Below, in pieces: positions 61,101 to 63,627 of a stretch of DNA of 64,000 bases. The notes beneath the pieces are model-generated. The model did not search any database, was not told where the DNA came from, and worked only from the letters and a program-made list of their open reading frames with translations. The stretch lies in NCBI RefSeq assembly GCF_900167575.1, contig NZ_FUZP01000001.1, positions 744,001-808,000 of the forward strand, in the 5' to 3' direction. The translations under genes and the position numbers were made by a program. The stretch is from Okibacterium fritillariae. GTDB taxonomy: Bacteria > Actinomycetota > Actinomycetes > Actinomycetales > Microbacteriaceae. Positions within the stretch are counted from its first letter, which is position 1. The number at the start of each line of letters is the position of its first letter.

Positions 61101-61550
61101 ATGTTGTCCAACGTCTTCATCAATCTGCCCGTGAGCGACCTCACCCGCTCGTCGGGCTTCTGGACCTCCGCCGGGTTCGAGCTCGACCCCAACTTCACCG
61201 ACGAGAACGCCGCCTCCGTCAAGCTGAGCGACAGCATCTACATCATGCTGCTCACGCACGGCATGTGGGCGCGTTTCATGTCGAAGCCCATCGCCGACCC
61301 GAGCAAGACGTCGTCCGTCATCAACGCGCTCGGCGTGGATGAGCCCGCAGAAGTGGACACCGTCGTCGACAAAGCGGTCGCCGCCGGCGCCACCGAGGGC
61401 CAGTCCCAGGACTACGGCTGGATGCGCTCCCGCGCCTTCGCCGACCCCGACGGCCACAATTGGGAGATCACCTGGATGGACCCGCTCGCGCAGACCGGCG
61501 GCTGGGACGCCATCGCCGCCAAATACCCCGACGCCACCCCGCCCGAATAA
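61101..61550 (+). CDS. VOC-family (glyoxalase-like) protein
   Basis: A 149-residue protein with two beta-alpha-beta-beta-beta modules: NVFINLPVSDLTRSSGFWTSAGF and VDTVVDKAVAAGATEG … AFADPDGHNWEITWMD. The lactoylglutathione-lyase-type metal residues are only partly clear (final E in WEITWMD). It is close to actinobacterial YaeR-like extradiol-type proteins. The role is unknown; detoxification or antibiotic binding are possible. Confidence 0.85.
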   Translation: MLSNVFINLPVSDLTRSSGFWTSAGFELDPNFTDENAASVKLSDSIYIMLLTHGMWARFMSKPIADPSKTSSVINALGVDEPAEVDTVVDKAVAAGATEGQSQDYGWMRSRAFADPDGHNWEITWMDPLAQTGGWDAIAAKYPDATPPE

Positions 61551-61586
61551 AGAGAACATCTTCGGGTGGGGCGCGTGGGGCGGGGC

Positions 61587-61781
61587 CTATTTACGCTTGT
61601 TATCACCCCATGGATCGTCCACTCCGACCGCCCGTGCAGCCGCCGGGGTTGCGCTGAGAAATAACGCTGTCAGGAGAAAAGCCACCAGCCAGTCAGCCTG
61701 AGCGGCGAAGCGCGCTGCCAGGACCTGCGCCAGCACGAGAAGAGCGATGTACACGCCCCAGAACAGAAAACGGCGGCTCAT
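61587..61781 (-). CDS. Small two-span membrane protein, putative immunity partner
   Basis: A 64-residue protein: first helix at about 5–24 (FLFWGVYIALLVLAQVLAAR), second at about 31–50 (WLVAFLLTALFLSATPAAAR), then a charged tail (VDDPWGDNKRK). Its ATG lies inside the stop of the preceding secreted-protein gene (ATGA), so the two are made together. Size and topology fit bacteriocin immunity proteins, but I recognise no family and the role is inferred. Confidence 0.65.
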   Translation of the reverse strand: MSRRFLFWGVYIALLVLAQVLAARFAAQADWLVAFLLTALFLSATPAAARAVGVDDPWGDNKRK

Positions 61782-62752
61782 CGAATATTGGCGGATAGGC
61801 AACCGCCGACTGCGCTTGAAACAGTCCCCGCCCAAGAGCCGACGCTGACGTGCCACTTGCCATCTCCCCGCTGTTTGAGGGTTACCGGCGGGGAGGCGGC
61901 GATGCCCGCGCCAGTGCCGATGGCTGCGCCGAGCCCGCACCGACGGAAGGCCGGCTGTGCGATCTTGCCGCGGACTGTTCGTACGATTCGCGCAGCGGCG
62001 ATTGCGGATGCGCGGGCAGCCGCTGCGCTTCGAGTGGCGGCTCGAATCGCTACCTGTCCAATCACTCGACCTCCCGCGATGATCAAAGGAACAAACCAAA
62101 GGGGATCGGCAATAACTGGAAATGCGGTATCGGATCCGGTCTCAATGACCTGAGTCGGAGTATTTCCATCAACGAGATACTTCGTGGGCACGTCCTTGCC
62201 GTCCGAATCCACGGCCCAAGGTCGAGGGACAATGAGGCTCACGGCGCCTGTCCCAGGGTCAGAAGCCTGTGCGCCACCGCCTTCCACAAGGGCGAGCCGA
62301 TGCCCCTCGGGGAGTGTGACATGAAAATCGAATGATGTGGGCGAGGAAGCGTCCGCGATCGCGATGAGCGCGCGTAAACCGTCGCTTAAAGACGCCGACT
62401 CAGGGGATGGAACGGCTTCGAGCGCGAGTTTTCCGCCAGCTGGAAGCTCACTGAAGCGCATATCCGGAGCAAAATGCGATTCGACCGGGGCGTTGGTCGT
62501 TGGGAGCCCAACGAGCACCGGCCCGGAGGGTGACGCCGGGAGCTTGATTTCCGGCTTCTCGGTGGACACGTGGATATCGGTGTCCTCGAAAGCGATATTT
62601 GACGTTGACGTGTCGTCGTAGTCGTCCAACGCCTTCTCTGCCGGGCTGGATGGCAACGTGTCTAAGGAATTCGCAGAAGCGGGATCCCCCAGAGCAAGGA
62701 CGAGCAACGTCGCTGTAATGATCGCAGTGGCGTTCCGATAATTGCGAGACAT
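61778..62752 (-). CDS. Secreted cationic protein with glycine/alanine-rich C-terminus, putative toxin or bacteriocin
   Basis: A 324-residue precursor. Signal peptide at 1–28 (NYRNATAIITATLLVLALGDPASA). A beta-rich middle domain ends with RPWAVDSDGKDVPTKYLVDGN … FPVIADPLW near residue 220; I recall this 'PVIADPxW' end in other actinobacterial secreted proteins with variable C-termini. The last about 105 residues are Ala/Arg/Gly-rich and cationic, with a hydrophobic helix and two Cys (272 and 318). A strong GAGGAGG ribosome site is present. GC content is visibly lower than in neighbours, suggesting transfer. Confidence 0.68.
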   Translation of the reverse strand: MSRNYRNATAIITATLLVLALGDPASANSLDTLPSSPAEKALDDYDDTSTSNIAFEDTDIHVSTEKPEIKLPASPSGPVLVGLPTTNAPVESHFAPDMRFSELPAGGKLALEAVPSPESASLSDGLRALIAIADASSPTSFDFHVTLPEGHRLALVEGGGAQASDPGTGAVSLIVPRPWAVDSDGKDVPTKYLVDGNTPTQVIETGSDTAFPVIADPLWFVPLIIAGGRVIGQVAIRAATRSAAAARASAIAAARIVRTVRGKIAQPAFRRCGLGAAIGTGAGIAASPPVTLKQRGDGKWHVSVGSWAGTVSSAVGGCLSANIR

Positions 62753-62814
62753 CTTTCCTCCTCATTAATGGACTGAGGCCGTTAATGTATCGGAATTCGA
62801 TGTGCGATATTTCG

Positions 62815-63627
62815 CTACGCGCCACCGCGCTTGGCGAGAAGGTCCTCCATGAGGCCGATCTCGGACTCCTGGGAGTTGACGACGCCTCGAGCGAACTTCG
62901 TGACGGCCGTGTTGGTGCTGCGCTCGAGCACCGCGTCGGCCATCTCGATGGCGCCCTTGTGGTGCGCGATCATAAGCGTCAGGAAGATCTTCTCGGCGTC
63001 GGTGCCCGTCGCATCGGTGAGTTGCTGGATCTGCGCGGGGGTGGCGAGGCCGGGCATGGGGGCACCGGGTTCGTGGGCGGCCGCATCGGTCGAGGTGCCG
63101 CCGTGGGCGTGGCTGGCTCCCTCGAGCGTGGGGCGCGTCATCCACGTCATGGATGGCTCACTGGCGGCGGCCGGAAGACCCCAGCTCTGCAGCCATCCGA
63201 GCATCTGGCCCGACTGGTTGGCCTGCGTGAACGCGATGTCATAGGCGAGCGTGCGGATGTCGTCAGAGGTCGAGCGGTCGCGAATGAGGAACGCGAGTTC
63301 GACGCCCTGGTCGTGGTGCAGCTGCATGTCCCGCGAGAATCCGGCTTCGGCCGAGTTTTGGGTGGGCGTCGGGTCGGCGAGGGTCGAGAGGCGGCCCACC
63401 GAGAACGCGACGAGCCCGACGACGACGATGACGAGGATGCTGGCCACCACGAGCATCCAGCGGGGGAGGCGCGGTTTCGGGGCGCGTTGTGCGGCCTCGA
63501 AAGCCTCGAGCTCGGCGTCGGTTGGTTCGGTGTCGGTTGTGCCTCGAGCGTCGGTGCGCCGACGGATGCCCCGGGCCGCGGCGTGCGGCAGCGGGGCATC
63601 CGTTCGTGCGTCGGGGGTGTCGGTCAT
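62815..63627 (-). CDS. DUF305 family membrane-anchored protein
   Basis: A 270-residue protein with a cytoplasmic tail (about 55 residues), one span (about 58–80, WMLVVASILVIVVVGLVAFSVGRL) and an external four-helix DUF305 domain. The domain has two His motifs, MQLHHDQGVELAFL and LMIAHHKGAIEMADAVL, that can bind metal. The His/Ala linker (HAHGGTSTDAAAHEPG) may add ligands. It overlaps the upstream DUF3105 gene by ATGA. Links with copper handling are known for some relatives; here it is inference. Confidence 0.88.
   Translation of the reverse strand: MTDTPDARTDAPLPHAAARGIRRRTDARGTTDTEPTDAELEAFEAAQRAPKPRLPRWMLVVASILVIVVVGLVAFSVGRLSTLADPTPTQNSAEAGFSRDMQLHHDQGVELAFLIRDRSTSDDIRTLAYDIAFTQANQSGQMLGWLQSWGLPAAASEPSMTWMTRPTLEGASHAHGGTSTDAAAHEPGAPMPGLATPAQIQQLTDATGTDAEKIFLTLMIAHHKGAIEMADAVLERSTNTAVTKFARGVVNSQESEIGLMEDLLAKRGGA

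Follow-up and report, generated by a model that had tools for sequence, protein, structure and literature searches.

Closticin 574 of Clostridium tyrobutyricum is, in the account given in PMC10888436, made as a pre-protein of 309 aa, of which 27 form the signal peptide, and is cut extracellularly to yield an 82-aa bacteriocin, and the mature form of a related peptide, CLB, is taken to start with P-D-W-S-K-I-A-A (PMC10888436; primer translated here). Polymorphic toxins, on the other hand, combine a signal peptide, a constant N-domain, a swappable C-terminal toxin and an adjacent immunity gene, and Zhang et al. 2012 (PMC3482391) described lineage-specific N-domains following signal peptides, such as MafB-N in Neisseria, Microscilla-N and APD1/2. 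Here we analyse a gene pair located in a stretch of 64,000 nucleotides of Okibacterium fritillariae (contig NZ_FUZP01000001.1, positions 744,001 to 808,000), referred to as the window. The pair consists of a candidate toxin (pro-bacteriocin) gene at 61778..62752 (ATG start, TGA stop, 324 aa), with homologues of its N-domain, and a putative immunity gene at 61587..61781 (ATG start, 64 aa, two membrane spans and a charged tail), both on the minus strand. Comparison of sequences leads us to assign a probability of about 0.85 to the reading that it encodes a secreted antibacterial toxin and its immunity protein, within a polymorphic family that follows the closticin 574 plan. What the compared sequences establish is a constant N-domain, an exchangeable C-terminus, a partner gene that co-varies with it, the presence or absence of the cassette, and an orphan immunity gene kept under selection.

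Architecture of the pair and the closticin 574 plan

The initial annotation had proposed, from the letters alone, a secreted cationic protein overlapping a two-span membrane protein. The ORF coordinates place the ATGA overlap at 61778-61781, and a Kyte-Doolittle profile gives two hydrophobic spans in the 64-aa protein. By inspection, the 324-aa protein begins with a Sec signal peptide (residues 1-27, 62672..62752), MSRNYRNATAIITATLLVLALGDPASA, with an AxA site and a cut before N28; a start with a hydrophobic N-terminus is possible in 109/119 genes of the family, according to a crude hydrophobicity rule. The constant N-domain or pro-domain follows (residues 28-216, 62105..62671), supported by alignment A1 and the AlphaFold2 model; it is acidic and its second half is beta-rich, residues 125-215 being modelled with pLDDT mostly above 90. 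It runs into the junction FPVIADP (residues 211-217, 62102..62122; FPVIADPLW spans residues 211-219), which is invariant in alignments A1 and A4 and contains the predicted maturation bond, Asp216-Pro217. The variable C-terminal part (residues 217-324, 61781..62104), the predicted mature toxin, has about 108 aa, a net charge of +13 and two Cys, and the 180 residues before it have a net charge of -18 and no Cys. It comprises a hydrophobic/cationic linker with a helix, WFVP..GGRV (residues 218-254, 61991..62101), and a putative toxin domain (residues 255-324, 61781..61990) modelled as a compact alpha/beta fold, beta-alpha-beta-beta-beta-alpha, with pLDDT mostly above 80-90 (mean of 74.8 in a second AlphaFold2 model). 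All these features lie on the minus strand. The signal peptide, the beta-rich domain ending in FPVIADPLW and the cationic C-terminus with two Cys were therefore correctly read at the outset.

Neither the 324-aa nor the 64-aa protein has a meaningful match in Pfam or NCBIfam, which led us to discard an LXG/WXG type VII toxin. Foldseek searches with the whole model and with the C-terminal domain gave no match in the PDB below 1e-3. Diphtheria-toxin entries were among the best matches of the whole model, with TM-scores of 0.1-0.2 and in the company of unrelated folds, and were treated as noise.

The window protein shares with closticin 574 and closticin-like proteins a signal peptide, a long pro-region and, presumably, a C-terminal bacteriocin released from a Sec-secreted pre-pro-protein. 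The 'putative closticin' of Paenibacillus phage BN12 matched the A1 profile at 6e-36 and was found by tblastn with the window protein at 5e-13; its homologous pro-domain ends in ADP, and mature CLB begins at the Pro of ADP. When the start of CLB is placed on the family it falls on this Pro, which makes Asp216-Pro217 the likely maturation bond; by homology, we infer Sec export and release at Asp-Pro. The window C-terminus, in contrast, is unrelated to closticin, and the pro-domain of the family bears many kinds of toxin, including nucleases. A Sec signal and a homologous pro-domain ended by ADP are thus found together with a mature domain that is not closticin-like, that is, the same plan as closticin 574 with a different warhead. 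Among the actinobacterial members, only L111 has a C-terminus resembling that of BN12 (E 1.5e-4, in a small set), apart from weaker resemblances in L109, L065 and L102. In the phage, the closticin-like gene (L197) has a 3-span partner and adjacent holin and amidase genes.

The initial annotation had also invoked class II bacteriocins. In both, the mature part is small and cationic and a small immunity protein of the membrane is encoded directly downstream, but the likeness does not hold strictly: class II precursors have a double-glycine leader with an ABC exporter, or are unmodified peptides under ~10 kDa, whereas the window protein is a 324-aa precursor with a Sec signal and a 190-residue pro-domain, and its mature part is larger.

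One N-domain with exchangeable C-termini

A search by tblastn with the window protein found matches in 17/59 relatives, every time via the N-domain. Profile A1 was built from an alignment of 20 N-domain sequences, in which W179, A180, T190, Q201, P212, D216 and P217 are invariant. We collected 119 distinct N-domain proteins and took the sequence after the ADP motif as the C-terminal part. These parts fell into 15 clusters at E<1e-4 and are of at least 15 mutually unrelated kinds; cluster 3 itself holds several different domains joined by a common linker, namely that of the window protein. On a poorly resolved N-domain tree the C-terminal type changes 33 times, with a minimum of 17, and differing types occur inside supported clades. 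The proposal that the conserved middle domain serves as a leader for variable C-termini is supported by these results. Had the homologues all shared one C-terminus, with no small membrane gene next to them, this would have spoken against it, and what we found is C-termini that vary with a partner that co-varies.

Some C-termini correspond to known toxin domains: EndoU (3e-5) and DUF4258 (2.5e-5), both nuclease-like and just under their cut-offs, DUF2599 (8.7e-15), whose function is unknown, and a protein of a Rhodococcus plasmid that is annotated as TNT-domain. An AHH/DUF2380-like C-terminus gave a weak match, and an Arthrobacter member ends in an HNH-like EWHHIV, named from its sequence only and with no match in Pfam. 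EndoU and AHH-like types are also shared with the polymorphic toxins of PMC3482391, among whose N-domains that of the window is not included. Unlike those, the window N-domain is spread across the Actinomycetota with rare members in Firmicutes phages, is compact and free of repeats, and most C-termini of the family face membrane or lipoprotein-like partners.

Two further types deserve mention. The type CFNCYFPI...HFDGxGSxITFSWYND, with partners of 4-7 spans, was found in L009, L011, L027, L035-L037, L039, L042, L044, L046, L050 and others; it has no match in Pfam or NCBIfam and is probably an undescribed toxin domain. DUF2599 C-termini with small lipoprotein-like partners occur in L071, L073, L077, L079, L085 and L086, and these partners suggest that DUF2599 is a toxin domain active outside the cytoplasm.

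Partner genes, the cassette and an orphan immunity gene

A membrane ORF of up to 200 aa was found within 60 bp downstream of 96/119 family genes (81%), as compared with 10/245 control ORFs (4%) of the same loci (p 4e-53), the count being approximate since it relies on simple ORF picking and hydropathy. Partners similar to each other (E<1e-5) had the same C-terminal type in 88/88 pairs, against a mean of 17 and a maximum of 37 in 2000 permutations, although this agreement is inflated by common ancestry. The adjacent gene is, therefore, specific to the C-terminal type. Soluble partners accompany the EndoU, AHH-like, HNH-like and DUF4258 types, the last with a DUF2283 partner (1.6e-10); one DUF2599 subgroup has lipoprotein-like partners, with the lipobox read by eye, and the remaining types have membrane proteins. 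The type of partner fits the presumed target compartment of the C-terminus. The claim of a secreted toxin with a small membrane immunity protein gains support from this comparison, in which the partner gene co-varies with the C-terminus.

The C-terminal type of the window is shared only by Mycetocola tolaasinivorans (L091/L132), with 50% identity over 213 residues, both Cys included. The 69-aa partner of Mycetocola aligns gap-free with the 64-aa protein, with R3, F7, W8, Y11, P46, A47, R50 and W58 identical. BLAST and phmmer see this pair of partners weakly, so that their homology rests on a register test, in which they scored 26 while shuffled sequences averaged -55 (0/20000), the next best membrane partner scoring -4. 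When 396 genomes of the order were searched for the C-terminus of the window protein, the window itself was the only match, with about 12 candidates scored per genome and Mycetocola not necessarily among those drawn.

The pair lies in an accessory cassette (61550..62820), 1271 bp between the flanking stop codons where a genome of the same genus, G001, has 92 unrelated bp; the DNA similarity with G001 ends at the stop codon of a glyoxalase gene and resumes at that of a DUF305 gene. G001 lacks exactly this pair at the matching site and bears another pair of the family elsewhere. At the site of the window genome that matches the pair of G001, in turn, the toxin has been lost and the gene of its 83-aa membrane partner is intact. 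The latter is 77% identical to the partner in G001 (dS 0.56, dN 0.12, dN/dS 0.21), and such retention under selection in the absence of the toxin is what would be expected of an immunity gene. This is one case of an orphan immunity gene, in the window's own genome. It is located at L175:667-915 (contig C3, ~147166-147414), and of the toxin gene there only the promoter and the start codon are left.

Such toxin remnants and orphan immunity elsewhere in the genome, together with the single copy of the window pair, could mean that some members are decayed or domesticated and that the window pair is inactive. We consider this improbable, as both ORFs are intact, the ribosome site AGGAGG is good, and the C-terminus has been conserved with Mycetocola to the extent indicated above.

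As initially noted, both genes are poorer in GC than their surroundings: GC is 0.61 in each, with GC at third codon positions (GC3) of 0.625 in the toxin gene and 0.66 in the partner gene, against GC3 of 0.85-0.93 in the neighbouring genes, and only 1.1% of the 975-nt segments of the window have a GC content as low as or lower than that of the toxin gene. The AT-rich upstream region was also borne out (62 bp with 43.5% GC), and a 6-bp inverted repeat, CATTAA..TTAATG, is present at 62763-62787, but the repeat is within chance, since an equivalent one appeared in 11% of shuffles of this gap. No common motif was evident in 109 upstream regions; the word ATATCGCA, common to the regions upstream of the window gene and of its Mycetocola counterpart, occurred in 2/109.

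Proposed mode of action

According to the scheme that we favour, the 324-aa pre-pro-protein would exit via Sec, and the acidic N-domain (28-216) would act as a constant carrier or pro-domain that holds the cationic C-terminus inactive, takes it to the cell envelope of a relative, or both. The part from Pro217, of about 108 aa with two Cys, would be freed at the invariant Asp-Pro and would attack its target. The cytoplasmic membrane is the most likely site of this attack, given that protection would come from a protein with two membrane spans, the 64-aa one, which would block the toxin from within the membrane of the producer. Antibacterial activity and a membrane target are what we infer for the C-terminal part.

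It could also be the case that the C-terminus acts in the cytosol of the target, with the WFVP helix carrying the alpha/beta domain across the membrane and the partner either blocking entry or binding the domain at the inner face of the membrane. The WFVP linker is common to EndoU, AHH-like and DUF4258 C-termini and elsewhere goes with C-termini of nuclease type whose partners are soluble; such partners were found in 7/9 cases with the linker and in 4/103 without it (p 3e-7), the window type being the exception; the domain is moreover predicted as compact alpha/beta, with no PDB match, and not as a simple helical pore. The partners in the window and in Mycetocola are, however, both membrane proteins, the region GLGAAIGTGAGIAA is rich in glycine, as is seen in pore formers, and no nuclease motif or fold match was found in the C-terminal domain. 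Action in the cytosol seems to us rather unlikely, though well worth considering.

Several points count against a secreted toxin/immunity pair on the closticin 574 plan. When CLB, the closticin-like peptide of B. altitudinis, was produced in vitro, it failed to kill either of two indicators (PMC10888436), and the family is linked to closticin 574 via the annotation of a phage homologue and the sequence of a published primer, not through a direct alignment. Only two genomes have provided a C-terminus of the window type, for which no fold match was obtained. The dN/dS of 0.21 of the orphan gene also covers the period preceding the loss of the toxin. Finally, the partner is of membrane type, yet the toxin bears a linker otherwise seen with cytosol-acting domains, and the coincidence of both in the same pair makes the site of action uncertain.

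We tentatively propose, while leaning against it, that the Sec-exported pro-domain, cut at Asp-Pro, perhaps autocatalytically, is a general actinobacterial device for delivery into Gram-positive neighbours. With comparable reserve, such a device might deliver membrane-active peptides as well as cytosolic nucleases without a dedicated secretion machine, as a monoderm counterpart of colicins. With this family, the entry of Sec-exported nucleases into Gram-positive neighbours becomes a testable question, and the N-domain with its toxin-immunity pairs might find use in narrow-spectrum antibacterials.

Distribution of the family

The A1 profile detected the N-domain in 81/400 Microbacteriaceae genomes and in 17/396 genomes sampled across the phylum. 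Relatives were found in Mycetocola tolaasinivorans, Canibacter, Microbacterium, Agrococcus, Cryobacterium, Arthrobacter, Jonesia, Varibaculum, Modestobacter, Herbidospora, Catellatospora and one Acidimicrobiaceae metagenome-assembled genome, on plasmids of Streptomyces, Rhodococcus and Clavibacter capsici, and in Microbacterium phage Min1 besides phage BN12. A scan of genome contigs with the window protein alone gave no match, and viral contigs held no relatives of the BN12 gene. Neither Pfam nor NCBIfam has a model for the N-domain, which has no relative in the PDB by sequence either, and our literature search, within the terms used, retrieved no paper on the family; this actinobacterial family is large and apparently undescribed. 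It joins closticin 574, an odd and isolated bacteriocin, to a polymorphic toxin-immunity family as wide as the Actinomycetota, and [FY]PVVADP plus the next gene provides a simple handle to name hundreds of hypothetical and small membrane proteins.

The N-domain is also distantly similar (E 1e-7 to 1e-18) to the N-terminal region, with YPVxVDP, of large surface proteins of the RHS/YD-repeat and DNRLRE kinds in actinobacteria, which differ from the repeat-free family in having 1200-4300 aa with repeats. The pair might accordingly serve in adhesion or envelope stress, as a surface protein that is secreted and has an accessory protein in the membrane, and would then be no weapon; this is highly improbable, given that nuclease, DUF4258/DUF2283 and TNT-annotated C-termini, their exchange, the co-varying partner, the absence of the cassette and the orphan partners all fit toxins.

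In plasmid pCM2 of C. capsici, the member (L199), annotated as DUF4258 and with a DUF2283 partner, adjoins peptidase and pectate lyase genes. In phage Min1, orf 64-65 (L198) form a toxin/partner pair of the family near a predicted holin gene. Finally, loci L179-L196 are those in which the N-domain is distantly recognisable towards the N-terminus of the huge RHS/YD-repeat and DNRLRE proteins, with frames of up to 4300 aa.
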